Source: Bradyrhizobium sp. NFR13
GTDB lineage: Bacteria > Pseudomonadota > Alphaproteobacteria > Rhizobiales > Xanthobacteraceae
Direction of reading: 5' to 3'
Length of the DNA stretch: 64,000 bases
Assembly: GCF_900114605.1 (NCBI RefSeq)
Contig: NZ_FOTP01000010.1
Span: 124,001-188,000 of the forward strand
The translations under genes were made by a program, and so were the position numbers. Each line of letters starts with the position of its first letter. Within the stretch, counting starts at the first letter, position 1. Shown here in pieces: positions 6,946 to 29,880 of the stretch. A model generated the notes under the pieces. That model did not search any database. It was not told the origin of the DNA and saw only the letters and a program-made list of their open reading frames with translations.

Positions 6946-8034
<1,089 letters not shown>

Positions 8035-8237
8035 TCAAGCTCTCCTTTTGCGGGCGTTTTCCCTAGAATTCCTTTGAGCATATTCAGCGGCAAATCGTTG
8101 CGCGATTCAACCGAAGACGCTCTGGTGCAGAGGCTGTCTAACACGGTTATTCAGCCGCGGAAAACACGACGAACGTCGTTGCCAGCCCAATTGAACGAAA
8201 GTTCTATGCGACATCTCGGCCCCGGCCACCGGCCGGC

Positions 8238-9422: not shown

Positions 9423-9738
9423 TGCGTGTCTCCCGATCGACGGATAATGCGAACCGCACAGATAGAGAACTTCCGCCCTAAGTCCATGCCGTTTCTAGGA
9501 TATGTTGAGAATTCCGGGATTGCTCTAGCACAAGACCGGCATCAGATTTTCTTTTGCAACGCACCATAGGTGGCTGAAGCCATGAGTGGTAACGGGGGCT
9601 TTGCCGCGTCCTGCGCAGCGACTATGCTGGCGCTCCTCACCACCAACGATCTCGTCGCCCCAAAATGTCAGGCGGCGCCCTCACTTCCCAACAGTCGACG
9701 TTCGGCAGCAAAGCCGACAGCATCCAAAGGGTACGGAC
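9423..9738. other. Divergent intergenic region, nothing further recognised
   Basis: These 316 bases separate mrp from the beta-hydroxyacid dehydrogenase and must hold both promoters. Short open frames here lack ribosome binding sites and family resemblance. No hairpin or repeat was seen. Confidence 0.5.
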
Positions 9739-13760: not shown

Positions 13761-14756
13761 TCACGCGGCTTGCGCCTCGGCCGACTCGTCCTCGACCAGC
13801 GCGATGGCATCGCGCAGCACCTGAATGCCAGCGCCATGCTTGACGCCGTTCTCCGCAAGATGGCGCCGGAACGCGCGCGCGCCGCGCACCGCATGGAAGG
13901 CACCGACAAAATGCCGGGTGATCGAGTGCAGCCGCGTACCCTGCGCGAGCTGATTCTCGATATAGGGCATCATCGCCTCGAAGGCGTTCTTCATCGTGGC
14001 GTACGGCGCCGGCTCGCCGAATAGTTCGGGATCGACCGCGAGCAGCCGCCACGGCTCCTGATAGGCCGCGCGGCCGAGCATCGCGCCGTCCACATGCGCT
14101 AGATGAGCAGCGGCTTCAGTAATGCCGACGATGCCGCCATTGATGACGATCGGCACATTGGGCATCGCCGCTTTCAGCCGGTAGACGCGGTCGTAATTCA
14201 GCGGAGGAATGTTGCGGTTCTCTTTCGGCGACAGGCCATTGAGCCAGGCCTTGCGCGCATGCACGATCAGGCTATCGGCGCCAGCTGCGACCACCGCGCG
14301 CGCGAGCGTATCGAGTGCCACTTCAGGATCCTGATCGTCGATCCCGATGCGGCACTTCACGGTGACGGGCACGTTCACGGCCTGCTTCATCGCGGTCACA
14401 CCGCGCGCCACCAGATCGGGCTCCGCCATCAGGCACGCACCGAAGCGCCCATCCTTCACACGATCGGAGGGGCAACCGACATTGATGTTGATTTCGTCAT
14501 AGCCGAAATCCGCACCGATCTTCGCAGCCTCTGCGAGGTGCGCGGGCTCCGAACCACCGAGCTGCAGCGCCACCGGGTGTTCACTGGCATCGAAGCCAAG
14601 CAGCCGCGCGCGGTCACCATGGATCACGGCACCGGTCGTCAGCATCTCCGTATAGAGCCGCGTCCGCCGCGACAGCAGACGATGGAAGACGCGGCAGTGC
14701 CGGTCGGTCCAATCCATCATAGGCGCGACAGAAAAGCGATAGTCTTGCGATTTCAA
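13761..14756 (-). CDS. dusA: tRNA-dihydrouridine synthase A
   Basis: A 331-residue FMN enzyme that reduces U20/U20a in tRNA. The N-terminal VAPMMDWTDRHCR, the RLYTEMLTTGAV segment, the catalytic Cys in NINVGCPSDRVKDGRFGACL, and the DusA-specific ending region with HSITRH identify the subfamily. The gene is intact, but the first ~20 codons appear to have been supplied by the island that follows: the relic beside serA (29833-29880) encodes a different 5' end (VNIRFCTAP versus SQDYRFSVAP). The 5' end of dusA is a known integration site for a family of tyrosine recombinases (dusA-associated integrases). Confidence 0.95.
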   Translation of the reverse strand: MKSQDYRFSVAPMMDWTDRHCRVFHRLLSRRTRLYTEMLTTGAVIHGDRARLLGFDASEHPVALQLGGSEPAHLAEAAKIGADFGYDEININVGCPSDRVKDGRFGACLMAEPDLVARGVTAMKQAVNVPVTVKCRIGIDDQDPEVALDTLARAVVAAGADSLIVHARKAWLNGLSPKENRNIPPLNYDRVYRLKAAMPNVPIVINGGIVGITEAAAHLAHVDGAMLGRAAYQEPWRLLAVDPELFGEPAPYATMKNAFEAMMPYIENQLAQGTRLHSITRHFVGAFHAVRGARAFRRHLAENGVKHGAGIQVLRDAIALVEDESAEAQAA

Positions 14757-15166
14757 TGAATTAACCTATGTCCTCAATGGGATGAAACACGAATACGTGC
14801 ACTCCAAACTAGCCGAATTTGCGCACGTTTGTACCTGTTTTGACCTCTCGGTGCACATATCGCGCGCTAAAGTTGGAGTGCACACGCAAGGCGACCTTCA
14901 CTCGATTGGCATCTGAAACCTGGCGCGCCTCCAGGTCTGGCGGCGACACGCTCCGACATCGTCGACATTTTAAGCGACCGCCCATGGATATCTGGCGCGA
15001 GAGCCAGCCTTGTTGCACGGCGGCGCGTCGACGATTTTATCGCGAAGAATATTGAGCGAATGAAGAGCAAGTCTTCATTCGCTAGGCGAGCAGACGCGGC
15101 GTTGTATTTGGAAGACCGAGTTACCGGCGACAGTTTCTCATGCGGACGATTTGCACGATGCGCTTG
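14757..15166. other. Gene-free island end with two inverted repeats
   Basis: No convincing gene lies in these 410 bases upstream of dusA. An inverted repeat has arms at 14797-14813 (GTGCACTCCAAACTAGC) and 14866-14883 (imperfect complement). A perfect 12-bp hairpin has arms AGCGAATGAAGA at 15055-15066 and its complement at 15072-15083 with loop GCAAG. The second could end uxaA transcription, though no T-run follows. The first lies close to the attachment site and could be a recombinase arm or excision site (inference). Confidence 0.5.
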
Positions 15167-16684
15167 TTACATCACAGCGCCGATTTGCCACGGCACGAAT
15201 TCGAGATCGCCATAACCCAAATCCTCCGATTTGGTGTGGGCGCCTGAAGCAACCTGCAGAATCTGATCGAGGATCTCCTGCCCTTTAGCCTCGATCGACG
15301 TTCCATCAAGCACGTCGCCGCAATTGATATCCATGTCGTCGGCCATGTTCCGATACATTTCGCTGTTCGTGGCGAGCTTGATGGAAGGTGTCGGCTTGCA
15401 GCCAAAGGCCGAACCGCGGCCGGTGGTGAAGCACATCACGTTGCACCCCCCGGCAACCTGACCGGTCGCGCCGACTGGATCGTAGCCGGGGGTGTCCATG
15501 AAAACGAACCCCTTCTCCTTGATCGGTTCGGCATACCCGTAGATTGCACGCAGCGCGGTCGTGCCACCTTTGGCAGCAGCGCCCAGCGATTTCTCCAGAA
15601 TTGTCGTGAGTCCACCGGCCTTGTTGCCTGGCGAGGGATTGTTATTCAACTGGCCACCATTGCGGCTGGCGTATTCTTCCCACCAGCGAATCCGCTCAAT
15701 GAGCTTCTCTCCGACGGAGCGGCTGACCGCACGGCGCGTCAACAGATGCTCCGCACCATAAATTTCCGGAGTTTCAGCAAGCACTGCCGTCCCTCCATGC
15801 TTGACCAACTGGTCGACCGCGGCTCCCAGCGCAGGGTTAGCGGTAATGCCCGAATATCCGTCCGAACCGCCACACTGGAGGGCGAGGACGATTTCAGACG
15901 CTGGCCGCGTCTCGCGCTTGGCGCGCGCAGCAACCGGCAGCATTGCCCGGATGCGTTCGACGCCCTGATCGATGGCTTTCCTGGTTCCGCCAGACGCCTG
16001 AATTGTCATGGTCTGGAAGTGATCGCCTTCCACCAGGCCATATTCTTCTTTCATACGATCGATCTGAAAGACTTCGCAACCAAGGCCGACCATCAGCGCG
16101 GCGCCGAGATTGGGGTGGGTCGCGTAACCCCATTGGGTACGGCGGAGCAAATCCCAGCCCTCCCCATAGGATGCCATTCCACACCCGGTGCCATGCACAA
16201 ACGCCACCGCGCCATCGATCTCGGGATAGTCATCAAGCAGTCCGGAGCGATTGACCTCTTCGGCAATGAATTTCGCCGTCGTTGCCGAACAATTCACGGA
16301 GGTCAGGATGCCAATATAGTTTCGCGTTCCGGTTCTTCCGTTTGGTCGCACATAACCTTCAAAGGTTGCACGCAGCTCGGGCGGCAATACTTCCGAGAGT
16401 TTGGCTCCCTCGGCAAACTGATAGTCGCGCGCGAAGTCATGCATGACGACGTTATGCTCGTGCACCCAGTCGCCGGGCACGATGTCCTTCGATGCGAAAC
16501 CAATGATCTGGCCGCACTTCCGCACCGGCTCGCCCTTATGGATGGCGGCGGTGGCCATCTTGTGCCCCCGTGGTATTCGCTGCTGTGCGACCAGATTGGC
16601 AAGACCGGTACCGAGAAGGATTTGATCGACGGCGACAATCACGTTGTCGTCGGACGATAAACGGATCGTTCGTGGCGTGCTCAT
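15167..16684 (-). CDS. uxaA: Altronate dehydratase (UxaA/GarD family)
   Basis: The 505-residue protein is the full-length fusion of an N-terminal SAF domain (about 1-95, with HKMATAAIHKGEPVRKCGQIIG) and the Fe-dependent dehydratase domain (GRTGTRNYIGILTSVNCSAT, HGTGCGM, CGGSDGYSGITANPALGAA). Length matches UxaA/GarD (about 495-525). In this operon it most likely dehydrates D-altronate to 2-keto-3-deoxygluconate, because KDG kinase and KDPG aldolase follow in the divergent unit. Galactarate dehydratase is the main alternative but would not feed KDG kinase. It lies 30 bp downstream of the GntR gene on the same strand and is probably co-transcribed with it. Confidence 0.85.
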   Translation of the reverse strand: MSTPRTIRLSSDDNVIVAVDQILLGTGLANLVAQQRIPRGHKMATAAIHKGEPVRKCGQIIGFASKDIVPGDWVHEHNVVMHDFARDYQFAEGAKLSEVLPPELRATFEGYVRPNGRTGTRNYIGILTSVNCSATTAKFIAEEVNRSGLLDDYPEIDGAVAFVHGTGCGMASYGEGWDLLRRTQWGYATHPNLGAALMVGLGCEVFQIDRMKEEYGLVEGDHFQTMTIQASGGTRKAIDQGVERIRAMLPVAARAKRETRPASEIVLALQCGGSDGYSGITANPALGAAVDQLVKHGGTAVLAETPEIYGAEHLLTRRAVSRSVGEKLIERIRWWEEYASRNGGQLNNNPSPGNKAGGLTTILEKSLGAAAKGGTTALRAIYGYAEPIKEKGFVFMDTPGYDPVGATGQVAGGCNVMCFTTGRGSAFGCKPTPSIKLATNSEMYRNMADDMDINCGDVLDGTSIEAKGQEILDQILQVASGAHTKSEDLGYGDLEFVPWQIGAVM

Positions 16685-16714
16685 TGGTGAGTTCTCATTT
16701 CAGGTCAGATCAAG

Positions 16715-17620
16715 TCAAACAGTAGCCTGGCGTAAATGATCAACCGACTTCAACAGCGTCTTGCGTGCCGTCTGCAGATGCGTCCGGCATTTAGCGTCAA
16801 TGGCGTCCAGATCGCGGCTGCGCAATGCTGCGATATATGCGAGGTGCTCGTGCAAGGCGACATAGTTACGTTCTTTTTCGTCGGCCTTGTTCCACTGATA
16901 GTGGTAATGGAAGATCATCGATATCACGTCGTAGAAGTTCAAGACGAAGCGGTTCTGTGAGGCGTCATGAACGAGGCGATGAAGTCGTTCGTCGAGTCGC
17001 GAGAACTCCCGGTATCGTTCATCGATGTTTTCCAGCAGGTGATGATGTTCTCGCTCGATCGCGTCGAGCTCGGACCAGGCCGCAGCGTCCGGCGGCAGTT
17101 CGGCAAAACGATGCGCCGAGCGGAGTTCGAACATCTCGCGGATCTCGTAGATCTCCATCGCAAAATCAGTCGTGATCCCCTTGAAGACCCACGCGCTGTT
17201 AGGACGGCGCTCCAATAGGCCAAAGTGATTGAAGTGTGTGAGATGTTCGCGGATGGCGGAGGTTGATGTCGAGAACTGGCGGGCCAGTTCGGCACAGTTG
17301 ATGAGCTCTCCCGGGCGAAAATCGCCCTGCAGAATCCACTCCATGAACCGGCGCCCGACGATATCGCTGACGGACTCGGTCTGCGCTTCGGGAAAGTAAT
17401 CGTCTGCCACCGGTGAGCGCACGAGATGTCTGCGGCTGCCGTCGCGGTGAATGATATTGGCATTGGCGAGAGAGGACAGCACGGCGCGCACCGTCGTGCG
17501 ACTGACATCGAGAGCCTGCGCCAGTTCGAGTTCTGAACGGAGATGCGTACCAAGTTCGTGCTTCGCGAGCATATTCAAGCAGCGGTTGTGGGCGCGTTTG
17601 AAGACAGCGTTACTCTTCAT
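16715..17620 (-). CDS. GntR-family regulator with two N-terminal winged helices and an FCD domain
   Basis: The 301-residue protein has a first winged helix at about 10-65 (LELAQALDVSRTTVRAVLSS) and a second at about 85-145 (CAELARQFSTSTSAIREHLT, then GLLERRPN). An FCD ligand domain covers about 150-290 (EIYEIREMFELRSAHRFAEL, RLHRLVHDASQN, EHLAYIAALRSRD). Most FadR-type regulators have one winged helix; here two follow each other. It is divergent from the dehydrogenase/ABC/kinase/aldolase unit and upstream of uxaA, so it probably controls both in response to a hexonate or KDG-type ligand. The ATG at 17620 gives the complete first helix-turn-helix. Confidence 0.85.
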   Translation of the reverse strand: MKSNAVFKRAHNRCLNMLAKHELGTHLRSELELAQALDVSRTTVRAVLSSLANANIIHRDGSRRHLVRSPVADDYFPEAQTESVSDIVGRRFMEWILQGDFRPGELINCAELARQFSTSTSAIREHLTHFNHFGLLERRPNSAWVFKGITTDFAMEIYEIREMFELRSAHRFAELPPDAAAWSELDAIEREHHHLLENIDERYREFSRLDERLHRLVHDASQNRFVLNFYDVISMIFHYHYQWNKADEKERNYVALHEHLAYIAALRSRDLDAIDAKCRTHLQTARKTLLKSVDHLRQATV

Positions 17621-17747
17621 TCTTGCGATCGATCCTCAGTAGCAAAAAAGCTATTCGGCGCTTTCAGTTTTTTACAGATAAAAAACAATTTGACGAAGTA
17701 CCAGCCCTTAAAGATTCATGGCCTCACAAAAAAGCTCGAGGAAACAC

Positions 17748-17825
17748 ATGACGACGGTTCCCACCCTATCGATAGCAGTGACTGCAAACCCCGACGCCAG
17801 CTACTCGGCGGCAGCGGTCGCGTGA
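17748..17825 (+). CDS. 25-residue leader ORF coupled to the uxaB-like gene
   Basis: An ATG with a strong ribosome binding site (GAGGAAACAC before it) opens a 25-codon frame, MTTVPTLSIAVTANPDASYS followed by AAAVA. Its TGA overlaps the GTG of the next gene (GTGA at 17822-17825), the classic arrangement for translational coupling. The peptide resembles nothing I know. It may be a leader that sets translation of the dehydrogenase, or the true N-terminus of that enzyme with a -1 shift. Confidence 0.45.
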   Translation: MTTVPTLSIAVTANPDASYSAAAVA

Positions 17826-18955
17826 CCGGTCGGATCATCCAGTTCGGGACCAGTCGCTTCCTTCAGGCCCATGTCGGTGTTTTCGTCCACGAGGCACGTG
17901 TTTCCGGCCAAGACGTCGGGCCGATTGCCGTTGTTCAAGCATCAAATTCTACCGGTCGCGCCGGACGCGTTCAGGCATTTGGCCGGCCCGAAGGCTATCC
18001 CGTCCTGATCCGCGGTATCGAAAATGGCGTCAAGATCGACCGGCGCATCGACGTTCTGAGCGTGGACCGTGGATTCTCCGCAGCGCGCGATTGGCGGGAA
18101 TTGTCTGGCTGTTTCGTCGCGGAAGCGGATGTCGTCGTCTCCAATATGGGCGATACCGGTTACGAGGTTGCAGACAGCGACCGCGGATCGGCTTTGCTAT
18201 CCGGCGACGTGCCACAATCCTTTCCGGGCAAGCTGACAGCTTTGCTCCACCGGCGCTGGCGGGACGGCGCCCGCCCGTTGACCGTGCTGCCTTGCGAACT
18301 GGTTCACCGCAACGGCCGCATCCTCGAAGAGAGAGTGCTGGCGTTGGCAAGCGAGGCCGGCGCACCGTCAGCTTTCGTCGAATGGATTGCGAAAGAGATC
18401 ATCTTCGCCGAAACGCTGGTCGATCGCATCGTGTCGGAGCCGATCGAGCCTATCGGCGCGGTCGCTGAGCCCTATGCGCTGTGGGCGATCAAGCGCGCCC
18501 CTGGCCTTTCAGCGCCGTGCATCCACCCCGCCATCGTTCTGGCCGACGAACTCGAACCGTTCGAGCGACTCAAGCTGCACATTCTCAATCTCGGCCATAC
18601 CGTGCTTGCCGACATCTGGCTGTCCGAGAGCCGCGCTCCGAACGAGACCGTGCGAGAAATTCTTGCGAACGCCTCCATCGCTGAACGGCTTGATCATATC
18701 CTGCAGCGCGAAGTGCTGCCAGGCTTCGCCGTTCATGGCATGGAAGCGGAAGCGCGCGGGTACATTGTGACGACGCTCGACCGTTTTCGAAATCCGTTCC
18801 TTGATCACCGGATTTCCGATATCGCACAGAACCACGTCATGAAGATCGACCGGCGTATTCTTGCATTCCTCAAATGGATCGCCGAGCGCGGGCACGCGCC
18901 TGCAACTCCCAAGCTCGATGCGTTCAAAGCGCGACAATCGGCGCTTCAAGCCTGA
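17822..18955 (+). CDS. uxaB: Mannitol-dehydrogenase-family oxidoreductase, probable tagaturonate reductase
   Basis: A 377-residue polyol/hexonate dehydrogenase. The family N-terminus IIQFGTSRFLQAHVGVFVHE begins within five codons of the chosen GTG (17822). The catalytic Lys-Asn-His signature is visible as KLHILNLGH (K-x4-N-x2-H), as in Pseudomonas mannitol 2-dehydrogenase. In this operon the expected reaction is NADH-dependent reduction of D-tagaturonate to D-altronate. D-mannonate oxidoreductase is the alternative. It is shorter than E. coli UxaB (483) because C-terminal segments are missing. No ATG exists at the homologous start. The frame is open upstream but has no family resemblance. It begins a long divergent operon. 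Confidence 0.75.
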   Translation: MTGRIIQFGTSRFLQAHVGVFVHEARVSGQDVGPIAVVQASNSTGRAGRVQAFGRPEGYPVLIRGIENGVKIDRRIDVLSVDRGFSAARDWRELSGCFVAEADVVVSNMGDTGYEVADSDRGSALLSGDVPQSFPGKLTALLHRRWRDGARPLTVLPCELVHRNGRILEERVLALASEAGAPSAFVEWIAKEIIFAETLVDRIVSEPIEPIGAVAEPYALWAIKRAPGLSAPCIHPAIVLADELEPFERLKLHILNLGHTVLADIWLSESRAPNETVREILANASIAERLDHILQREVLPGFAVHGMEAEARGYIVTTLDRFRNPFLDHRISDIAQNHVMKIDRRILAFLKWIAERGHAPATPKLDAFKARQSALQA

Positions 18956-18972
18956 GATGAAATAGAACCGGC

Positions 18973-19656
18973 ATGACCTATCATTTCGATTTTTCGGCGT
19001 TGCTGCCGTATTGGCCAGAATTCGCCCGTGGCATCTGGCTGACCTTGCAGTTGTCCGCCATCTCGACGGTGTTGGGTTTCGTTCTCGGCACGCTCTGCGC
19101 CATTGGTCGTGCCGATGGTTCGCGCTGGGTCAAGTGGCTTGTCGCCATCTACGTCGAGGCGATCCGCAACACCCCACTGCTGGTACAGGTCTTCATCATC
19201 TATTTCGGTATCGCGACCCTCGGCTTACATGTCTCAGCCAACTTGGCCGCGGTCATCGCCCTGGTCATCAATGTCGGGGCCTATACCTGCGAGATCGTGC
19301 GTGCAGGTATCGAATCCGTCCACAAATCGCAGATCGAAGCCGCCGAATGCCTGGGGCTGTCCCGCGTCCAGACATACTGGCATGTGGTGTTACGTCCGGC
19401 GATCGAGCGCGTCTATCCGGCGGTTACCAGCCAATACGTCCTCTTGATGCTGGCATCCTCCATCACGTCGCAGATCTCGGCCGAGGAACTGACCGCCGTC
19501 GCCAACCGGATCCAGTCCGATACGTTCCGCGCCTTCGAAACCTACATCGTCACCGGCGTTCTGTACCTGCTGCTGTCGCTCGTCGTCCGTATCTGTCTGT
19601 GGCTGTTCGGATTGGCTATCTTCGTTCGTCGGCGCAAGCTCGGCACGGCGATCTAG
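18973..19656 (+). CDS. ABC transporter permease, polar-amino-acid (HisM/Q) family
   Basis: The 227-residue inner-membrane permease has the N-terminal HisMQ signature (ARGIWLTLQLSAISTVLGFV), the AIYVEAIRNTPLLVQVFIIYF phrase split over helices, and the EAA loop EAAECLGLSRVQTYWHVVLR that docks on the ATPase. It forms a heterodimer with the next permease. Although the family is named for polar amino acids, its place in a hexonate operon suggests a sugar acid as substrate. It is 17 bp downstream of the dehydrogenase. Confidence 0.88.
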   Translation: MTYHFDFSALLPYWPEFARGIWLTLQLSAISTVLGFVLGTLCAIGRADGSRWVKWLVAIYVEAIRNTPLLVQVFIIYFGIATLGLHVSANLAAVIALVINVGAYTCEIVRAGIESVHKSQIEAAECLGLSRVQTYWHVVLRPAIERVYPAVTSQYVLLMLASSITSQISAEELTAVANRIQSDTFRAFETYIVTGVLYLLLSLVVRICLWLFGLAIFVRRRKLGTAI

Positions 19657-19665
19657 GAAAAGTCC

Positions 19666-20319
19666 ATGCCGACATTCAGCCTCGTTCATCTCGAATTCCT
19701 TCTCACTGCCGCGCAGTGGACGATCGGCCTGTCGATCGCAGCCTTTGTCGGCGGCGGCCTGGTCGGGTTCGTGGTCGCGCTTGCGCGCATCTCCGACCTG
19801 CGTGTGTTGCGAATTGCCGCGACAGTCTACATTCAGCTCGTTCAGGGGACGCCGCTGCTCATTTTGCTGTTCGCCATCTATTTCGGCATCGCGCTGCTCG
19901 GTTACACCAATCTGCCTCCGCTCATTGCGGCCAGCGCGGGCCTCATCATTTACTCCTCGGGATTTCTTGCCGAGATCTGGCGCGGCTGCATCGATTCCGT
20001 TCCGAAGACGCAATGGCAGGCGGCGGAGTGCCTCGCGCTCACGCGATGGCAGCGCATGGTGAAAGTCATCCTGCCCCAGGCAGCGCGCATCGCCACCGCC
20101 CCCACCGTCGGCTTCCTGGTACAGATCGTCAAAAATACGTCGCTGGCGTCTGTGGTCGGCTTTGTCGAATTGGCCCAGGCCGGAAAGCTCATCAACAATT
20201 CGATCTACGAGCCGTTCACGGTCTTCATGATCGTCGCGCTCATTTATTTCGCGATCTGTTTCCCGCTCTCGACCTGGAGCCGGAGCCTGGAAAGGAAGCT
20301 CAATGTCGGCCGTCGTTAG
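19666..20319 (+). CDS. ABC transporter permease, polar-amino-acid (HisM/Q) family
   Basis: This 217-residue permease pairs with the preceding one. It has about five hydrophobic helices, the typical YIQLVQGTPLLILLFAIYFG and an EAA loop (AAECLALTRWQRMVKVILPQ). The gene starts 9 bp after its partner and its 3' end overlaps the ATPase gene by 17 bp, which implies coupled translation. Its helices are otherwise unremarkable; the substrate is inferred only from the operon. Confidence 0.88.
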   Translation: MPTFSLVHLEFLLTAAQWTIGLSIAAFVGGGLVGFVVALARISDLRVLRIAATVYIQLVQGTPLLILLFAIYFGIALLGYTNLPPLIAASAGLIIYSSGFLAEIWRGCIDSVPKTQWQAAECLALTRWQRMVKVILPQAARIATAPTVGFLVQIVKNTSLASVVGFVELAQAGKLINNSIYEPFTVFMIVALIYFAICFPLSTWSRSLERKLNVGRR

Positions 20320-21055
20320 TCTTTCAAACGTCCATAAGCAGTTCGGTTCGCTCAAGGTCCTCGACGGCGTATCGTTCGAGGTGGGACGTGGCGAAGTCGC
20401 TGCCATCATCGGTCAATCCGGCTCCGGCAAGTCGACCGTCCTGCGATGCATCAATGCGCTTGAAACGATCCAGCAAGGGACAATCGATGTGTGCGGCCAC
20501 GCATTACACGATGCGAGCCTCAATCGCCGCGCCTTGCATCTCGACGTCGGCATCGTGTTCCAGAGCTACAACCTGTTTCCGCACCTGACCGTCGAACAGA
20601 ACATCATGCTGGCGCCCGTCAGCGTGAAGTCGATCCCCAAGAAGCAGGCCCGTGAACTCGCCCGCGAGGTGTTGACCCGCGTCGGGATGGAGGCAAAGGC
20701 GGAGAATTACCCCGAGCAACTGTCGGGCGGTCAACAGCAGCGGGTCGCGATCGCCCGCTCGCTCGCGATGAGTCCGAAGCTGATGCTGTTCGATGAAGTG
20801 ACGTCGGCGCTCGACCCGCAGCTGACCGGCGAAGTGCTGAGAGTCATGGAAGATCTCGCGCGCGGCGGCATGACCATGATCCTCGTCACGCATGAGATGG
20901 CGTTTGCGCGAAAGGTCGCATCCAAGGTCATCTATATGCATCAGGGCAAGGTCTGGGAAACCGGATCCGGCGACATGCTCGATCAGCCAAAGACAGCCGA
21001 GCTCCGCAATTTTGTTGGAGGCGTCTCCCACGATCGCGCCGAGGCGTCCGTCTAG
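20303..21055 (+). CDS. ABC transporter ATP-binding protein (GlnQ/HisP type)
   Basis: The 250-residue ATPase has Walker A GQSGSGKST (about 38-46), Q-loop in VGIVFQSYNLFPHLTV, signature LSGGQQQRVAIARSLA, Walker B LMLFDEVTSALDP, and the switch His in LVTHEMAFARKV. Sequence style is that of the GlnQ group. It energises the two permeases encoded just upstream. The D-loop reads SALDPQ, and the Walker B carries the usual catalytic Glu. Confidence 0.92.
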   Translation: MSAVVSLSNVHKQFGSLKVLDGVSFEVGRGEVAAIIGQSGSGKSTVLRCINALETIQQGTIDVCGHALHDASLNRRALHLDVGIVFQSYNLFPHLTVEQNIMLAPVSVKSIPKKQARELAREVLTRVGMEAKAENYPEQLSGGQQQRVAIARSLAMSPKLMLFDEVTSALDPQLTGEVLRVMEDLARGGMTMILVTHEMAFARKVASKVIYMHQGKVWETGSGDMLDQPKTAELRNFVGGVSHDRAEASV

Positions 21056-21099
21056 GCGGACGTCAAAACCAGGTTTCAATTCAAAAAGGGACGAAACAC

Positions 21100-21900: not shown

Positions 21901-21963
21901 CTTTCCCTTGCGGCCCGGGCTTGCACCGGGCCGCGCTTTATCTCGATGAGAAAGACCTAGCGA

Positions 21964-22974
21964 ATGAAAGCCTTGATCTGCGACGAGCCGGGCCGGTTGT
22001 CCCTCGTGGAGCGCCCAATTCCCGTTCCGGGAGACGGCGAGGTTCTCGTGCGAATCCGCCGGGTTGGCATCTGCGGCACCGACTTCCACATCTTCCAGGG
22101 CAAGCATCCCTTCCTGCAATATCCCCGCGTCATGGGCCACGAGCTGTCGGGTACGGTCGAGAGCGCTCCCGCCGGAAGCGGCCTGGCCCACGGGCAGAAT
22201 GTCTACATCGTGCCCTATCTGTCCTGCGGCAAGTGCATCGGCTGTCGGCACGGCTTTACAAATGCGTGCCAGAACATCGCGGTACTTGGCGTGCATCGCG
22301 ACGGCGGCATGGCGGAATTTCTGGCGGTTCCAGCCAGCAATGTGATCCCCGCCGGCAACGCTTCGCTCGACGATGCGGCAATGATCGAGTTCCTGGCGAT
22401 CGGTGCGCATGGTGTGAAGCGCGGCGGCATCTCGGCGCAGGATCGCGTCCTCGTCGTCGGTTCAGGTCCTATCGGCATGTCGGCGATTATCTTCGCCAAA
22501 GCACGTGGCGCGGACCTCACCGTGATGGATACGCGTGAAAATCGTTTGGCTTTTGCTCGCGATTCACTCGGTGCCGATCACCTTTTGATCGCCAATGCCG
22601 ACGCAGAGGCCGAGGCAAAGAAACTGACGGACGGCGACTTCTTCGACGTCGTCGTCGACGCGACCGGAAATGCCGACGCCATGCAGCGCGGCTTCGGCTT
22701 TATCGCCCATGGCGGACGCTATGTCCTGGTCAGCGTCGTCCCCACCGAGATCACGTTCTCGGATCCCGAGTTTCACAAGCGGGAAACCACGCTGTTCGCC
22801 AGCCGCAACGCCCAGCCGGACGATTTCGCCGAAGTGGTTCGCCAGATGGATGCGGGCAAAGTCCCGACCCGGGCGCTCAACACCCATCGTGGTCCCCTGT
22901 CGGATGGCGCATCGTTGTTCAAGGACTGGCTGCGTCCGGAAGCCGGTGTCATAAAGGCCATACTCGAAGTGTAA
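21964..22974 (+). CDS. lgoD: Zinc-dependent alcohol dehydrogenase, probable L-galactonate 5-dehydrogenase
   Basis: A 336-residue medium-chain dehydrogenase. Catalytic zinc ligands are seen in VGICGTDFHI (Cys37) and MGHELSG, and the structural zinc Cys cluster as CGKCIGCRHGFTNAC. The NAD-binding motif is VVGSGPIGMSAI. Phrases such as QYPRVMGHEL, GVHRDGGMAEFL and FSDPEFHKRETTLFASRNAQ resemble E. coli LgoD (YjjN) as I remember it. LgoD oxidises L-galactonate to D-tagaturonate, exactly the substrate needed by the uxaB-like enzyme in the same operon. L-gulonate or another hexonate remains possible. Confidence 0.75.
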   Translation: MKALICDEPGRLSLVERPIPVPGDGEVLVRIRRVGICGTDFHIFQGKHPFLQYPRVMGHELSGTVESAPAGSGLAHGQNVYIVPYLSCGKCIGCRHGFTNACQNIAVLGVHRDGGMAEFLAVPASNVIPAGNASLDDAAMIEFLAIGAHGVKRGGISAQDRVLVVGSGPIGMSAIIFAKARGADLTVMDTRENRLAFARDSLGADHLLIANADAEAEAKKLTDGDFFDVVVDATGNADAMQRGFGFIAHGGRYVLVSVVPTEITFSDPEFHKRETTLFASRNAQPDDFAEVVRQMDAGKVPTRALNTHRGPLSDGASLFKDWLRPEAGVIKAILEV

Positions 22975-23002
22975 CTCGTCGCTTTCAGTCTGGGATTGAT
23001 CC

Positions 23003-23926
23003 ATGCCGGATAAGTCGAAAATTGCCTGCATCGGCGAGTGCATGATGGAGCTGACGCAGCCGCTACCCGGCCATCATACGCTCGGCTATGGCGGAGATAC
23101 GCTCAACACCGCGATCTACTGCGCGCGACTTGGATTGGCCGTCGATTATGTGTCCGCGCTCGGCGATGATCCATGGAGTGATCAGATGATCGCCGGATGG
23201 CAAGCCGAGGGGATCGGCACCCATCGTGTCGTCCGAGTGCCAGGAAAACTGCCCGGCCTTTACATCATAGAGACAGGCACTAATGGAGAGCGTCGCTTTT
23301 ACTACTGGCGGGAAAATTCAGCGGCGCGTCTCCTGTTGTCGCTGCCCGAAACGCCCGCCATTCTCGAGGGGCTGTTGACGTATGACCTCGTCTATCTCTC
23401 GGGCATCACGCTGTCGCTTTATGACGAGGCCGGACGCAAGCTGCTGATGCAATCGCTCGATCGTCTTCGCAAGGCGGGCGGCCGGGTCGCATTCGATGCC
23501 AATTTCAGACCCCGGGGCTGGCCTGATCGCGCGGCTGCGCAGCGCGCCTATCATGATGTCTTCGAGGTCGCGGACATTATCCTGGCATCTGTCGAAGACC
23601 TCGACATGTTGTTCGGCGAGTCCGAGGCCAAGGACGTCGTGACGCGCCTTCGCGTTCCCGAGCTCGTTCTCAAACTGGTCGAACCATCATGTCGCGTGCG
23701 CGCGCCGGGCATTGACCAGATCATCCCGGCGACGCCGATCGACCGCGTGGTCGATACCACAGCCGCAGGCGACAGCTTCTCGGCGGCATATCTTGCAGCG
23801 CGCCTTGGCGGTGCCGGCCCCGTCGAGGCCGCGAAAGCGGGCCATCGTCTTGCCGGCACCGTCGTGCGCTATCCCGGTGCTATCATTCCCCGATCGGCTA
23901 TGCCGGACGGCGTGGCCCGTAACTGA
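23003..23926 (+). CDS. kdgK: 2-keto-3-deoxygluconate kinase (PfkB family)
   Basis: The 307-residue ribokinase-fold enzyme phosphorylates KDG to KDPG. Signs are the N-terminal IACIGECMMELTQ, the GGDTLNTAIYCARLG substrate loop, ERRFYYWRENSAARLLL typical of KdgK, and the C-terminal catalytic motif DTTAAGDSFSAAYLA, where the base Asp follows A-A-G. The usual G-A-G-D reads A-A-G-D, a common variant. It lies between the LgoD-like gene and eda, 28 and 20 bp apart, and completes the lower hexonate route. Confidence 0.88.
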   Translation: MPDKSKIACIGECMMELTQPLPGHHTLGYGGDTLNTAIYCARLGLAVDYVSALGDDPWSDQMIAGWQAEGIGTHRVVRVPGKLPGLYIIETGTNGERRFYYWRENSAARLLLSLPETPAILEGLLTYDLVYLSGITLSLYDEAGRKLLMQSLDRLRKAGGRVAFDANFRPRGWPDRAAAQRAYHDVFEVADIILASVEDLDMLFGESEAKDVVTRLRVPELVLKLVEPSCRVRAPGIDQIIPATPIDRVVDTTAAGDSFSAAYLAARLGGAGPVEAAKAGHRLAGTVVRYPGAIIPRSAMPDGVARN

Positions 23927-23946
23927 ACCAACTGGCGAGAAAGCTC

Positions 23947-24606
23947 ATGACCGATCATTCGACGTCTGTCTCCCGGCAGGAAGCGCTTGTCCGAATTCTC
24001 GGCGCGGCGAGAGTAGTCCCTGTGATCACCATCGATCGCGTCGAGGATGCCGTGCCACTGGCGCGCTCGCTCGTCTCCGGCGGAATCCGCGTGCTCGAAA
24101 TCACGCTGCGGACATCTGCCGCGCTCGAGGCAGCGAAGGCGATCATCGCGGAAGTGCCCGACGCGATCGTCGGACTGGGTACCGTGCTCGATGGCACCGA
24201 CCTTGAACGAGCCGCGTCTATCGACGCGAAGTTTGCCCTCAGCCCCGGGGCTACACCTGAACTGCTTCAGGCGGCTTCGCGAAGCCATATTCCTTTCATC
24301 CCGGGAATCGCGACGGCGTCCGAATTGATGGCGGCATTGGCACATGGTTTTGAGATCGTAAAGTTCTTCCCGGCACAACAGGCGGGCGGAATACCGGCAT
24401 TGCGCGCGCTAGGTGGACCGTTTCCGCATGCCCGCTTCTGTCCGACCGGCGGCATCAGTGCCGCCAATGCCAGCGAGTGGCTGTCCGAACGCAATGTTAT
24501 CGCGGTCGGCGGATCGTGGCTCTGCCCTGTGCCGGATATCAGAGCGGGCAATTGGGACAGCATTACCGCGCAAGCTCGCCAGGCAATGGACACCCTGGCT
24601 CCTTGA
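23947..24606 (+). CDS. eda: KDPG aldolase
   Basis: The 219-residue class I aldolase cleaves 2-keto-3-deoxy-6-phosphogluconate to pyruvate and glyceraldehyde-3-phosphate. The catalytic Glu is in GGIRVLEITLRT (about 45-50), and the Schiff-base Lys in FEIVKFFPAQQAGG (near 140). The glycine-rich phosphate site is CPTGGISAANASEW. It is the last gene of the operon; 38 bp later the convergent TonB receptor ends. No intrinsic terminator with a T-run was seen between them. Confidence 0.93.
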   Translation: MTDHSTSVSRQEALVRILGAARVVPVITIDRVEDAVPLARSLVSGGIRVLEITLRTSAALEAAKAIIAEVPDAIVGLGTVLDGTDLERAASIDAKFALSPGATPELLQAASRSHIPFIPGIATASELMAALAHGFEIVKFFPAQQAGGIPALRALGGPFPHARFCPTGGISAANASEWLSERNVIAVGGSWLCPVPDIRAGNWDSITAQARQAMDTLAP

Positions 24607-24644
24607 AGGAAGCGAGCATCGTCTCTGAGGACAAAATCCAGCGA

Positions 24645-26951
24645 TTACATGTCCACGGTCATCGACAGGAGATATGTACGCGGTGCTCCCAGGAAGAACG
24701 TTCCGAATGAGGCCACGCTGGACCAGTAGCTCTCGCCGGTCACATTCTGAACGTTCGCGCGGAAAACCGTCTTCCTGCCGTTGATCGCCGTGGTGTAACG
24801 GGTACCGAGATCGAGCCGCGTCCAGTCCGGGATCGGCTGCTTGTTCGCCGTATCGACGAATTGCTTGCCCGTGTAGATGACTGCCCCGTTCAAAGTGAGC
24901 CCCCTCACCCACGGGAGATCCCACTCAGCTCCAACATTGGCCTGTATGTTCGGAACGCCGATTGGCGTTTTGCCCACATTCGCCGCGACGGCGGTCTTCG
25001 TCAGGGTACCATCCAGCAGCGACAAGCCTCCGAGGACACGGATATCGGTCATGAGTTCGCCGTAGACGTTGAACTCGAGCCCACGGACTTGCTGTTCGGC
25101 GGTCGCCGCGAAGCGCCCGGCGGACAGCTCGCCGCTCGCCTTCGATATCTCGAAGGCACTGAAGGTGGTGGCGAACCGGCCGAAGTCCACCTTGATGCCG
25201 GCCTCGTACTGCTTGGCAATGTAGGGCTGGAGTACTTCGCCGAAATTGGAGGCGGTCTGGGGCGCGACGTCGCCTCGGCTCAGACCTTCGATATAGTTTG
25301 CGTATAGAGAGACGTTGTCCCTCGGCCGGACGACGAGACCGACCACTGGAGTAGTCGCGCTCCTGTCGTAGGACGACGTCAGCGTTCCGACATTGGAGAG
25401 ATAGTTGTTCGCCTCGATGCCCTGGCGCCGGACACCCAAAGTCAACAGGATACGCTCATCGAGCACGGACAAGGTGTCAGCAATCGAGAGCCCCGTGAGC
25501 TCACTGTCCGAAAGCCGGGGGCGCTCGCTGATCTCATTCGCGAACTGGGTCGGCGCCACGGTCGGATTATAGATGTTCGACGTGACCAGACTGCCATTGG
25601 TCAGCCGCCGGTACAGCGTGTCATGATAGACCGATGCCTGGAAGGCGACCGCATGGTGGACGACGCCGGTATCGAAGCGGGCGCGGACGCCGCCATCATA
25701 TGTGCTTCGATCGATGCTAAGCCCGAAGAATTGGGGCGTTGCGGTGGTGTCGCCGCTCGTGTTCACGATCGTCGGAAGACTGAAGAATCGCTCGACGTTG
25801 GTCCGAGATCCTCCGACATCGGCGAACAGCGTAACCTGATCGCTGACATCGTATTCGGTCCGCAGCAAGGCCGACTGATCATTGATGTGCGACCATTCCC
25901 AGGACTGCGTCACGTTCAGCCGATCGTCCGGAGCCTTCGACACAGGCAGGCCGGGAGCCATGAGAAAGGGACGTGACGGAGCGTCGAACCGATCGGTCTG
26001 GGCGATGAGATAGAGCCAGGACCTGAATCGTTCGCCCTGATAGTCGAGGGCTAGCGATCCGACACCTGTCGTTTCGGACTGGCGGTCGATGGGCGTATCG
26101 CCGCCACGCAGGCTGCCGTTGACGCGCACGCCCCATTCCTTGCTGTCACCGTAACGCCTCGCAATATCCCAGTGGCCACCGAACTGTGCGGCAGAACCGT
26201 AACCTGCGGTGAAGCGGGTCAAGTCTTCTCCCGCGCGCTTGGGCACGACATTGATGACGCCGCCGACGCCGCCATTGGGCGCGATGCCCGAGAGCGCAGC
26301 TGACGGTCCTTTGAGCACCTCGATACGCTCGACGTATTCCGTGAAGATGCGGTATGTCGGCGCGATCCCGTAAAGGCCCTCGAACGCGAACTCACCGCTG
26401 TTGCCTTCGTTGATCGGGAAGCCGCGAATGTTGAAGGAATCGAGCACGCCGCCCGTCGGATGGGAACTGCGTACGGAAGGATCCAGGATCAAGGCATCTG
26501 CAGCCGTCGCCGCCTGCTGATCCTGGATGAACGTGTCCGTGTAGCTCCCCACATTGAACGGCGACTTCATCGTATCGGTGTTTCCGAGCAGCCCCAGACG
26601 TCCGCCTTGAGCGACCTGGCCGCCCGCAAAGGCGGGCACGACACCCGACTGCGACGGCCCCGATCGCGCCGCGGCCGTTTGGGTTTGCGTCTGCGGGGCG
26701 TCAGACGCTGTGGCGCGCCGTGAAGCTGATCGGACCCCGGCGACATTTCGTTTGGTTGGTGCGCGGCGGACCAACCGCTGCGTCGGAGCATCGACGGTCA
26801 CGGGAGGAAGAGCAGTGGCGCCTTGCGGTGTTTGAGATTGAGCGGGCGCTTCAAAAAACGCCGCGAACGTCACGCTACTCAGTAGTGTCACGCCAAAGCG
26901 AGCCACCGTCCGACCCCCACCTGCAAGTCGCATTCCCAGAAATTCCCTCAT
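24645..26951 (-). CDS. TonB-dependent siderophore receptor
   Basis: An outer-membrane receptor of 768 residues from the ATG at 26951 (MREFLGMRLAGGG). The annotated frame stays open to 27050, but the signal peptide (FGVTLLSSVTFAAFFEAPAQ, cleaved near SQ-T) sits correctly only with this start. The plug domain has VLKGPSAALSGIAPNGGVGG and NVVPKR, and the barrel ends in an aromatic-type terminal strand (YLLSMTVDM). There is no N-terminal STN signalling domain and no FecI/FecR pair nearby, so it is a plain uptake receptor of the FhuA/FhuE/FoxA class, probably for a ferric hydroxamate (weak inference). It is convergent with the hexonate operon and unrelated to it in function. Confidence 0.88.
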   Translation of the reverse strand: MREFLGMRLAGGGRTVARFGVTLLSSVTFAAFFEAPAQSQTPQGATALPPVTVDAPTQRLVRRAPTKRNVAGVRSASRRATASDAPQTQTQTAAARSGPSQSGVVPAFAGGQVAQGGRLGLLGNTDTMKSPFNVGSYTDTFIQDQQAATAADALILDPSVRSSHPTGGVLDSFNIRGFPINEGNSGEFAFEGLYGIAPTYRIFTEYVERIEVLKGPSAALSGIAPNGGVGGVINVVPKRAGEDLTRFTAGYGSAAQFGGHWDIARRYGDSKEWGVRVNGSLRGGDTPIDRQSETTGVGSLALDYQGERFRSWLYLIAQTDRFDAPSRPFLMAPGLPVSKAPDDRLNVTQSWEWSHINDQSALLRTEYDVSDQVTLFADVGGSRTNVERFFSLPTIVNTSGDTTATPQFFGLSIDRSTYDGGVRARFDTGVVHHAVAFQASVYHDTLYRRLTNGSLVTSNIYNPTVAPTQFANEISERPRLSDSELTGLSIADTLSVLDERILLTLGVRRQGIEANNYLSNVGTLTSSYDRSATTPVVGLVVRPRDNVSLYANYIEGLSRGDVAPQTASNFGEVLQPYIAKQYEAGIKVDFGRFATTFSAFEISKASGELSAGRFAATAEQQVRGLEFNVYGELMTDIRVLGGLSLLDGTLTKTAVAANVGKTPIGVPNIQANVGAEWDLPWVRGLTLNGAVIYTGKQFVDTANKQPIPDWTRLDLGTRYTTAINGRKTVFRANVQNVTGESYWSSVASFGTFFLGAPRTYLLSMTVDM

Positions 26952-27466
26952 CAACAACACGTCGGCCGACGCGAAATGGCTCCGCACGCGGCGTGCAACG
27001 ACCATGGATCCACGATCCGCTCTCGGCGTCCGCGCTCGGCCGTCACTCAACGTGAATCATGTTCTCCGCAGACTCGCATTCCGGATGAGCTGCCTGCGCC
27101 TTATCGGCAACGTCCGATTGCTCGTGATCTGCAGCGCTTCACTAGAGAGACGCCATCGTCACCGCAACGCTAATGCACGCGCTGCGATTTAGAATGTCTC
27201 GATCATCGACGACTCGTGTCGGTTGAGCTCGTGTCTGGAAAGATTCAAAAATTCTTTGGGAAGATTCTGCAGCATCTCAAGATGCGCAAATCAAAGGGAA
27301 CGTCGTGAGCTCTGGCGGTGGTTCGACGCCCGCCGTCAGCATCTCCGTATGGAGTCGGGCCCGCCGCGACAGCAGACGATGGAAGACGCGACAATGCCGG
27401 TCAATCCATCATCGGTACAATGGAAAACGTCTATCTAAGCAGGAAAAAAGAAGTCATCGCAAATGG
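26952..27466. other. Gene-free stretch between the two island segments
   Basis: 515 bases without a supportable gene. The part next to 26951 should contain the promoter of the siderophore receptor, but I could not see a clear Fur box. The remainder is lower in GC and ends in the dusA relic at 27335-27430. Confidence 0.5.
27335..27430 (-). pseudogene. Degenerate fragment of the dusA 5' end (relic B)
   Basis: On the plus strand this matches dusA 14638-14724 over about 80 bases, including the 20-mer CCGCCGCGACAGCAGACGAT that is identical in both copies. There are about eight substitutions plus a 5-bp deletion at the PMMDWTD codons. It cannot be translated (in-frame TGA and frameshift). It covers roughly dusA codons 5-40. 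It most likely marks an older insertion event at dusA. Confidence 0.8.
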
Positions 27467-29371
27467 TCAGAACGAAGCAGCGGAGCGATAATTCTTGGCT
27501 TTGATATCCCGCAGCGTTGATGCCGATTCCGATGCTGGTTGCGTCAGTGTTTCCCGTGCGAAGCGAACGCGATTCCGACCGCTCAACTTTGCTCGGTAAA
27601 GGGCGGCGTCAGCAGCATCAATCAAGCACCGCCACCCATCCTGACCGCCACGCCCTTTTGCCACGCCGAAGCTTGCAGTGACGCGCAATCGGGTACCGTC
27701 GGAAGTAATGATCTCGTGTAGCTGCAACGCAAGCCGGATTTTCCTGGCCAACGCTACGGCGCCGGCAAGATCATGGTCCGAGACCAGAATTGCGAACTCC
27801 TCACCGCCAAAACGAGCGACGATGTCGGTTGGACGCACGAGAGAGCGCATGAGGCGCGCGGCTTCTTTGAGGACATCGTCGCCGGCGAGATGACCATGCG
27901 TATCATTAATCCTCTTGAAATGGTCGAGATCGATGAGGATGAGAATGCTGGCGTCGTCCGCCTTGGTCTGGCCATCAACGCGACGCTCACCAAGCTGGTC
28001 CAGTGCACGTCGGTTGAGGACGTTGGTCAACCCATCGGTCTCAGCCTGCAATTTCAGTTGCCCCATCAGGGACGCACGCTCCTGCAACTTGCCTTGCAAG
28101 ATATCAATCGCATCGAACAGATGTAACATCTCAGAGGCGTGATACAGGTCACGTTTCAATGCGCTTGGGTTATCTTCCGCCAAGCCGATCACCTCTTCCC
28201 CGGCTCGTAGCAACGGCCGGAAAATACTGACCTGAATGGAGAGGACGAAGCCAATTAGCACAGCAAGCAGCAAGGCAGTCACGGCGGCGACAGCGATAAG
28301 AATTTTTAGTGCACGGTCGCGTGCCGCGACGACATTCTCAACGGCTAGATTCAAGAACTCACTGCGAAAGTGTTCCAGCGGCTGAAGTGTGGCGACGAAG
28401 CGCGTCGTCAGTTGCTCAGCTGTCATCGAGTAGCTGCCCGATAGTCGGCCTTCCGCAATGAGCGTATCGATGATCGCAAGTCCCTTGCCGAAGAACAGAC
28501 GCTCCACATCCCGTCGACTGTCCAGCAGACGAGCATCTCCGCGGTACAGCGCATCCTGGCCTCCGACGAGGCGCCAAAGCTCCAGAATGCGACCGCGTGT
28601 GCGACCGACCTCGATCAAATTCCTGAGTTCCAGTTTTTCACCGAGAGCGACCGGCGCCATAATCTGGGAGGCTATCCGGCCGCCGTATTCCCGAAGATCA
28701 CTCAATATCTGGCCTGTGAGGACCGGGCCCGCCAGACTCGTATCGCTGTTAACCAGTTCGTTGGCCTTCCAAGCAATCGCGGCCTGGAGTTCATCGACGA
28801 CCACGAACATCTGCCCGATCGCCTGTTGAATATCCTCAACACGACGATTTTCGCGCGGTATGGAGACGACGCGGTCAACTTCCATTCTGGCTTGCGAAAG
28901 CTCCTCCCGCACCCGATCGAACAAGCGTTTTGGAACAGGATGATCGTGCAACCCATACGGCATAGCCAGATGAGCGGCCACCCCATCGAGGGCGGCATCG
29001 CTTCGAGTCCGGAACTCGGCAAGCCTTTTCGATGCCGAGCTGTCGGTTGACGCTTCCGCAGCCATCATGACGTTGGCTGGGCCACGTTCCGCAGAAAGGT
29101 GATTAGCGGCGTCGAGGAGCAGCCGGAAAGCCTGAATGTCGAAGAGATTTTGCCGGGCTTGAGCGTAATCCACGTACAGCCGGCCGATGATGGTGAGAGC
29201 AAGGATGACCGTGCAGACAATCGCCAAGCCGGTGCGTGTCCAAAGCTTCCGACGAAGGCTATGTTCAGCCTTGCTCTTGGATCCGTCCATCCTGCGACCG
29301 AATTGGGCTTTGACTCCTTCAGTCTTTGCTTCGACAGAATTCGACAACTTCAAATTTATAAATCGAAACAT
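27467..29371 (-). CDS. Membrane diguanylate cyclase (GGDEF)
   Basis: The 634-residue protein has transmembrane helices near residues 50-68 and 380-402, with a periplasmic helical sensor of about 310 residues between them (nitrate-sensor/NIT-like helical bundle by appearance). After a short linker the GGDEF domain starts at TDGLTNVLNRRAL. The active site is GGEEF in VARFGGEEFAIL, and an inhibitory site RPTD lies five residues before it, so it should be an active, feedback-inhibited c-di-GMP synthase. No EAL domain is present. It is the only gene between dusA relics B and C, so it was probably carried as cargo. The start at 29371 has a GGGG stretch upstream. Confidence 0.85.
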   Translation of the reverse strand: MFRFINLKLSNSVEAKTEGVKAQFGRRMDGSKSKAEHSLRRKLWTRTGLAIVCTVILALTIIGRLYVDYAQARQNLFDIQAFRLLLDAANHLSAERGPANVMMAAEASTDSSASKRLAEFRTRSDAALDGVAAHLAMPYGLHDHPVPKRLFDRVREELSQARMEVDRVVSIPRENRRVEDIQQAIGQMFVVVDELQAAIAWKANELVNSDTSLAGPVLTGQILSDLREYGGRIASQIMAPVALGEKLELRNLIEVGRTRGRILELWRLVGGQDALYRGDARLLDSRRDVERLFFGKGLAIIDTLIAEGRLSGSYSMTAEQLTTRFVATLQPLEHFRSEFLNLAVENVVAARDRALKILIAVAAVTALLLAVLIGFVLSIQVSIFRPLLRAGEEVIGLAEDNPSALKRDLYHASEMLHLFDAIDILQGKLQERASLMGQLKLQAETDGLTNVLNRRALDQLGERRVDGQTKADDASILILIDLDHFKRINDTHGHLAGDDVLKEAARLMRSLVRPTDIVARFGGEEFAILVSDHDLAGAVALARKIRLALQLHEIITSDGTRLRVTASFGVAKGRGGQDGWRCLIDAADAALYRAKLSGRNRVRFARETLTQPASESASTLRDIKAKNYRSAASF

Positions 29372-29528
29372 GCAACCCCAAACGCGCAGGACTTAAAATA
29401 TCCTTTCAATGGCCCCATACTTTCGAAGCCAGTGTGATGCTCAAAATATCGGCATCCAACTTCCGATCAGTGAATCAACTTGGTAACGAGTTTGTTTATT
29501 TCCGGCGCTCCGTAATATTGTCTTCGAC

Positions 29529-29550
29529 CGATCAACCAGGTGGTTGATCG
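29529..29550. promoter_or_regulatory. 22-bp perfect palindrome upstream of the GGDEF gene
   Basis: Arms CGATCAACCA (29529-29538) and TGGTTGATCG (29541-29550) are exact complements separated by GG. No T-run follows. It lies about 160 bp upstream of the GGDEF start, a possible operator site. Function unknown. Confidence 0.4.
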
Positions 29551-29832
29551 AGCATCATCTCATTGGGGTGTTCGCCGTAATTTCTGAGGCGTAGTTTCAT
29601 CCGTCGTAGAGCGCCTCGGCGTTATTAGCCGAGATGCTATACGAGGATTGCCGACCAAATCACTCTGAAGCGCACAATCATACGGATTTGCGCAGTAGGC
29701 TGCGATACACGACAACGTCCAAACGAAAATGGAAGCGCGAGATCGCTCGCTTCTCGCGCGTCGAAAATAGATTGGCAGAGCATTTGGTAATGCACGGCTT
29801 ATCGAGTTCGCTCAACGCTTTGCTTTTCCGCT

Positions 29833-29880
29833 CGGTCAGTCCAGTCCATCATCGGCGCGGTGCAGAAACGGATGTTCACC
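29833..29880 (-). pseudogene. Original dusA 5' end left beside serA (relic C)
   Basis: Read on the minus strand from 29879, GTG AAC ATC CGT encodes VNIRFCTAPMMDWTDR, the DusA N-terminus, and then diverges. It begins about 40 bp after the serA stop on the same strand. The segment differs from the 5' end of the intact dusA at 14.7 kb except in the PMMDWTD core, as expected if the island replaced the 5' end of the gene. Confidence 0.75.

Follow-up and report, generated by a model that had tools for sequence, protein, structure and literature searches.

The window analyzed here is a 64,000-nucleotide stretch of DNA from a soil bacterium of the Tardiphaga group (closest named match Tardiphaga robiniae, locus L077), in which serA and dusA are separated by 15.2 kb (15,167 bp). 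The interval carries a catabolic module, a TonB siderophore-receptor block and a GGDEF element, together with two relics of the dusA 5′ end, one beside serA and one in the middle. We consider it very likely that the whole interval is an immobile, layered island that grew as DNA was acquired repeatedly at the 5′ end of dusA. In what follows, genomes are labelled G (G000 being the window's own), dusA loci L and contigs C. The features are these:

13761–14756, minus strand: dusA, with a TTG start, from the open reading frame (ORF) and alignment; an integrated element supplied its first codons and the region upstream
14701–14727, minus strand: presumed attachment core in dusA, attR side, matching 29833–29859 at 24 of 27 bp
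14722–14943, plus strand: element right end, comprising the dusA start, an intergenic region and about 15–20 frameshifted integrase codons reading away from dusA, from the matches to L011 and L013
14944–15159: spacer without a significant match in the loci searched
15160–24606: catabolic module, from Pfam, NCBIfam and the match to contig C170 of G003
24639–27337: TonB siderophore-receptor block, common to G009, where it also lies in the serA–dusA gap
27335–27430, minus strand: middle dusA relic, codons 1–43 of an earlier resident allele, from blastn, alignments and allele scores
27439–29832: GGDEF element (gene at 27467–29371, minus strand), common to G002; its left end adjoins the serA-side relic
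29833–29880, minus strand: old dusA 5′ end, attL side, left beside serA, from blastn, alignment, shuffle test and core scan
29920–31188, minus strand: serA, a short (PRK11790-type) phosphoglycerate dehydrogenase (NCBIfam NF008759, 630.7 bits, cut-off 404)

Three dusA 5′ ends and the two edges of the island

A sequence-only reading of the window had proposed three dusA 5′ ends, and blastn matches and shuffle scores confirm all of them, coordinates and strands included. When the 5′ end of dusA was compared with the window, the second copy was recovered at 27334–27415 (86% over 87 bp, E 3e-24) and the third at 29833–29859, which agrees with 14701–14727 at 24 of 27 bp (E 0.001). The relics were also scored by local alignment, taking the best of eight reference dusA alleles, with 300 single-base shuffles of each as control. 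The middle relic scored 149 (shuffle maximum 28) and the serA-side relic 59 (shuffle maximum 26); by these scores, both exceed chance. The outer copies do differ at three positions, as proposed, but over 27 bp and not 26.

The serA-side piece lies about 40 bp from the serA stop (29920), in agreement with the first reading, and its well-kept part is longer than had been thought, since 29841–29946 matches the uninserted dusA start of G016 continuously across the serA 3′ end (79%, E 2e-22). It aligns with G016 and G001 as the old dusA start, is continuous with the end of serA and stops at the end of the core. The 27-bp piece alone reached E 1e-4 in the own-genome scan, where the best downstream control (1.6e-5) is stronger; what gives this relic its weight is the more extended match to G016.

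For dusA-specific islands, passages of Farrugia et al. 2015 (PMC4482086) describe a 21-bp att within the 5′ end of dusA and an old dusA 5′ end that such islands leave at the far side. We equated the core with that att by position, not by the letters of its logo. The two island ends carry the ~21-bp att-like site as imperfect direct repeats, and the window's core repeat, with 1 mismatch to the consensus, lies 15,132 bp upstream. A 21-bp core scan with our own typed consensus, allowing up to 4 mismatches across 95 loci (two genomes present twice), returned 8 places in 952 kb upstream of dusA and none in 717 kb downstream. The upstream matches with 1–3 mismatches belong to the window, G002 and L046 (Bosea sp. 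OK403), and the other five, with 4 mismatches each, are probably chance. A tRNA as insertion target was rejected, there being no tRNA in the window. G+C content across 14.7–29.9 kb, named beforehand as a check, is lowered near both edges (0.53–0.59 near 14.5–18.5 and 27–30.5 kb, mostly 0.60–0.66 outside), but the middle of the island (18–27 kb, 0.585–0.634) is not distinct.

At the other edge, the dusA start and its upstream region match the right ends of elements and not the old start linked to serA. Specifically, 14722–14943 aligns with two Bradyrhizobium loci at the junction of dusA and an intact divergent integrase gene, L011 (81% over 226 bp) and L013 (81% over 220 bp), and also with L009 (80%, only a stub there) and L005 (72%, integrase intact). 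The match enters the integrase frame, where ATFTRLASETWR of the window stands opposite ASFTQLPSGNWR of L011, followed by a frameshift. The proposal that the old dusA 5′ end was left by serA while dusA was given a new one is borne out.

The integrases of the relatives are named by position and mutual similarity, not by comparison with published sequences. A profile made from nine integrases adjoining dusA returned nothing from the six frames of 13–32 kb (best E 0.59), and the six PF00589 matches of the window's genome all lie on contigs other than the window's own, C10. That no integrase is left is thus correct for an intact gene or a profile match, but approximately the first 15–20 codons remain by nucleotide match; the profile search that had been recommended for remnants gave none, and the stub is visible at the nucleotide level, by comparison with the Bradyrhizobium junctions. 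A dusA-associated integrase gene adjoining dusA, which marks dusA-specific islands, is not present in the window, and the island is a decayed derivative and not a functional member of that group. Within the same genus, G007 has an intact integrase of this kind adjoining dusA, and G002, G009, G011 and G014 have a common right end that, judged by eye, differs from that of the window. The two types of right end indicate that at least two element types used the dusA site.

Empty and occupied serA–dusA sites in relatives

Among the 18 genomes of the genus, 17 have dusA (the exception being G006) and 11, counting the window's own, have a serA with 84% identity or more to that of the window. In six of these 11 genomes (G016, G001, G012, G008, G013 and G010) the serA and dusA matches end 45–86 bp apart, while the gap is 662 bp in G015, 2.6 kb in G002, 3.2 kb in G009 and 36.9 kb in G005. 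Five more genomes have a 71% identical serA, on another contig than dusA in G003, G004 and G014 and about 500 kb off in G011 and G017; G006 and G007 have no serA match at E 1e-100. The comparison with island-free relatives thus provides the uninserted site, and serA and dusA were once contiguous, as had been supposed. Contiguity as the original state is supported only in part. The short-type serA is patchily distributed (found at E 1e-150 or better in 21 of 61 genomes, counting the window's own), so the serA–dusA arrangement is the older state but perhaps not a deeply ancestral one; from its distribution, serA itself may be an old arrival at dusA.

Two pieces of the island occur, each alone, in the same gap of relatives. 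The GGDEF element is 87% identical to G002 over 27439–29642, with the serA side contiguous, and fills the 2.6-kb gap of that genome. The TonB block is 93% identical to G009 over 24639–27250 and 89% over 27266–27337, and fills the 3.2-kb gap there. Copies at least 86% identical are found for each piece in 2 of the 18 genus genomes, at dusA in both; some match to TonB is present in 13 of the 18, the next best being 57%. The separate occurrence of these pieces between serA and dusA argues for more than one insertion. G002 also has a core relic of its own beside serA, 2548 bp upstream of the core and with 20/23 bp matching (score 31; 95% level of the shuffles 25, their maximum 35); the left-end sequence that comes after it is the one seen in the window.

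The catabolic module encodes an altronate/galactarate-dehydratase family protein, a GntR/FCD regulator, a tagaturonate-reductase-like protein, a polar-amino-acid-type ABC transporter, a Zn dehydrogenase, a 2-keto-3-deoxygluconate (KDG) kinase and a 2-keto-3-deoxy-6-phosphogluconate (KDPG) aldolase. Pfam and NCBIfam matches place it in hexonate catabolism, the best NCBIfam matches of its enzymes being below the cut-offs except for the aldolase. A dehydrogenase step to tagaturonate, a reductase step to altronate and a dehydratase step to KDG, followed by kinase and aldolase, would make a complete route on paper, with an L-galactonate-like compound as candidate substrate. Positions 15160–22970 and 22979–23438 match contig C170 of G003 (86% and 85%), the match starting just past the dehydratase stop and ending with the contig. 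The reductase gene is absent from G002 and G009. Within the genus, the window and G003 (82%, on a contig without dusA) have it, and at E 1e-100 or better it is found in 10 of 200 genomes, the window's own included. A dusA relic between the TonB and aldolase genes was looked for and rejected (24590–24660 scored 15; shuffle 95% level 21).

Other sites of the genus show features of their own. The 37-kb gap of G005 (C1:4411120–4448023) has no integrase profile match in the 18 kb adjoining dusA and no dusA relic above chance in the 341 bp tested beside serA. In the gap of G015 (681 bp) no relic scored above chance, and the score obtained was that of the gap's own end adjoining dusA. The clade-A empty sites L084 and L085 (G001, G016) have a common block of changes, MMDWSDTHCRVFHRILSKR, at dusA codons 16–36, right after the att core, which changes the right half of the core. 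The block is in no other locus compared, and L020 (Afipia massiliensis) has its first part, WSDTHCR; the changes may represent a scar of recombination, or a site where elements can no longer insert. In L123 (G001), a core-like CGATGATGGATTGGAC, not within 4 mismatches in the core scan, lies shortly before the dusA start, where the left junction of G002 sits, and is possibly the footprint of an earlier insertion.

Middle relic and the order of acquisitions

The middle relic scores higher with the dusA alleles of G009 (149) and G002 (144) than with the window's own dusA (116). Its place after the GGDEF gene is that of dusA in G002, except for a deletion of 166 bp of right end, and it runs 64 nt beyond the core to codon ~43, where it abuts the left end of the TonB block. 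The type of allele and the place after GGDEF suggest that the relic is probably the start of the dusA resident after the GGDEF element arrived, and the best reading of these alignments is that it marks an acquisition later than, and on top of, that element. More than one insertion, as first suggested from this relic, is thereby upheld, but a simple second insertion at the same site is not, since the relic exceeds the att footprint. As for stacking at an internal att site, an internal relic with core is present, but with a 5-nt gap in the core and 64 nt past it. Such a long relic was found in the window alone (E 2.7e-25; best downstream control 1.6e-5) among the 92 of 95 loci that had enough upstream sequence.

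The best reading of the locus is at least two acquisitions, GGDEF first and then the TonB block and/or the hexonate-catabolism module; two element types would have contributed right ends. In the first layer, an element with a dusA-directed integrase would have inserted at the core (dusA codons ~10–19), leaving the old start by serA (29833–29880) and giving dusA a new one; its surviving cargo would be GGDEF, as in G002. In the second, the TonB block, also present in G009, would have joined inside the resident dusA at codon ~43 and left the middle relic. A third layer, possibly the same event as the second, would have brought the hexonate module with a right end of the L011/L013 type, which would now supply the dusA start and upstream region. 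The integrase genes would then have decayed, leaving the stub of the last one. The uninserted site, the pieces in the gaps of relatives, the nature of the two ends and the stub are seen directly in the alignments; we infer the order of these events, any number of them above two, the recombination path of the second layer and the dependence of dusA on the retained end. Excision as a circle is not expected from an island without an integrase.

Several observations weigh against this layered origin. No integrase profile match lies in 13–32 kb, the spacer at 14944–15159 matches none of the loci searched at a significant level, the identity of the core with the published att logo rests on position, and no att or right-end sequence was found between the TonB and aldolase genes. 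Beside serA in G009, nothing amounts to a convincing dusA relic (score 24; shuffle 95% level 22, maximum 27). Whereas the serA-side relic and that of the Bosea locus L046 stop at the core, the middle relic goes on for 64 nt, so that canonical site-specific insertion does not explain it. Moreover, the backbone tree (7.3 kb, nodes at least 99), (G000,(G002,((G009,G001),G016))), misfits one gain per piece and calls for several losses or exchange by recombination. With the window basal in the clade, G001 and G016 must have lost the pieces if each was gained once. The serA alleles of the clade fall into two types that cut across this tree (dS 0.31–0.34 versus 0.64–0.73), which makes exchange of the region by homologous recombination likely. 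We relied on the backbone tree, since the dusA-body tree, with a different order, has weak nodes within the clade (57–61).

For the second layer, and perhaps the third, a plausible if tentative path is homology-facilitated illegitimate recombination of a linear donor that carried TonB (and catabolic genes) and its own dusA, homologous in dusA on one side and joined through micro-homology at dusA codon ~43 on the other. Immediately left of the TonB block of G009 lies GACGACGG, and the same eight bases occur in dusA codons 41–43 at the window junction; shared runs of at least 8 bp were seen in 6e-5 of 200,000 random junctions between those two stretches, for a junction that was chosen after the match was noticed. 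This path also agrees with the middle relic, which exceeds the core and derives from a G009/G002-like allele, and with the recombination of serA–dusA alleles in the clade. However, its donor is unseen, the junction is changed by a few bases, and the 8 bp in G009 may be all that is left of a former dusA relic there.

Alternatively, the second layer could have been an integrase-bearing dusA element with extra dusA (codons 20–43) on its left arm, arising for example by imprecise excision, and inserted at the normal core. This would produce the same arrangement with known enzymes, and the ends present are those of dusA-integrase loci. Yet no such carry-over was found in the other loci of the 92 scanned, and G009, with the same TonB block, has no convincing dusA codons there; we regard this path as rather unlikely, and lean slightly towards illegitimate recombination.

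A native origin of the GGDEF, TonB and catabolic genes, with loss from the empty-site relatives, is improbable. The dS of GGDEF between the window and G002 is 0.32, within the 0.29–0.73 of that pair's neighbours, and that of TonB between the window and G009 is 0.19, just below the corresponding 0.22–0.59. Both ranges leave aside one outlier (0.07–0.13), ORF o39200, whose dS/dN values are odd, perhaps from a wrong frame. These values indicate that neither gene is young in the clade, and a very recent arrival of either is not supported; TonB could have been exchanged after the window and G009 split, judging by its dS. Nevertheless, the genes are absent from the clade-B empty sites (G012, G008, G013 and G010), and the island edges are element ends. 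An old gain with later loss in G016 and G001 may have occurred and is compatible with the layered island. Simple duplication of the dusA 5′ end, unrelated to insertion, would account for a middle relic longer than the att site, but is hardly credible: the middle relic is closer to the G009 and G002 alleles than to the window's own dusA, the flanking pieces occur separately at the same site in relatives, and the serA-side relic joins serA without a break, just as at the uninserted sites; this outcome, set beforehand as one that would overturn the insertion reading, is thus disfavoured.

Relation to known dusA islands and integrase decay

Cis-mobilizable elements and accretion islands hold cargo between att sites without an integrase of their own and grow by successive insertion. 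The window differs from them in that there is no evidence of mobilisation, the right end of its first layer is damaged and its middle junction is not an att site. As in dusA-specific islands described in passages of PMC4482086, the target is the dusA 5′ end, the end repeats are imperfect, the old 5′ end lies at the far side, the new one comes from the element, and the integrase gene is near the dusA 5′ end (a stub here). Unlike those islands, the window has no complete integrase, at least two stacked layers and a relic exceeding the att site. The gaps of the single-layer relatives measure 2.6–3.2 kb and hold no integrase, compared with 4758 bp for the smallest island given in that source. A tandem pair at dusA, IEVpaBan1a/b, is reported in Vibrio (PMC8409611) and resembles the stacked island of the window; the dusA-integrated Vibrio elements described there carry integrases and SGI1-like mobilisation genes, and the passages concerned describe no decayed composite.

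The suggestion that the composite might be undescribed must therefore be qualified, because earlier publications (PMC4482086, PMC8409611) already describe dusA islands with their att sites, the exchange of the 5′ end and a tandem pair, but a layered island without integrase was not found in the literature passages searched, nor was a Tardiphaga dusA island or a comparable composite. As far as these sources go, the layered island without integrase, the one-gene mini-islands (2.1–3.2 kb) at dusA, the integrase stub kept beside the dusA start and the relic overrunning the att site appear to be new. The smallest mini-island, independent of Tardiphaga, is at L046 (positions 7804–10000): 2.1 kb within dusA without integrase, in the order old dusA start relic (48 bp), Fic-family gene (PF02661), new dusA start. 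Its relic is canonical and ends at the core (E 1.4e-12 in the scan of 92 loci).

According to passages of PMC8409611, an element can supply the promoter and N-terminus of dusA, with which the retention of a stub agrees. We speculate, with more doubt than conviction, that dusA in this group acts as a one-way recorder: an element would take over promoter and start, its dusA-proximal end would become indispensable and be kept, stub included, the rest would erode, the cargo would become fixed, and later arrivals, through integrase or through homologous or illegitimate recombination, would stack on top. If so, earlier starts would become fossils, giving integrase-less one-gene dusA mini-islands (GGDEF, TonB receptor, Fic), and dependence of a host gene on the end of an element would be a route to island permanence. 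The locus allows successive horizontal acquisitions to be ordered from the relics of one core gene, with relatives that keep the empty and single-layer states, and surveys of dusA sites that rely on the presence of an integrase will overlook such islands.

Integrase decay was further followed across 98 dusA loci (one genome twice, a few loci with less than 1 kb upstream). An intact or contig-cut integrase adjoins dusA in 11 loci (L005, L006, L011, L013, L022, L025, L032, L043, L044, L098 and L121), a match in L023 lies at a distance of 4.4 kb, and the genes of L015, L019, L048 and L082 are broken. No integrase profile match was found in 78 loci, the window included. Only the N-terminal part is matched in L008, L009, L060 and L081 (profile positions 1–28, 1–31, 2–61 and 6–67 among them). 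The stub in the window was probably kept because it lies beside sequence on which dusA would depend, and, given these N-terminal-only loci, others besides the window have kept the start of an integrase gene adjoining dusA.

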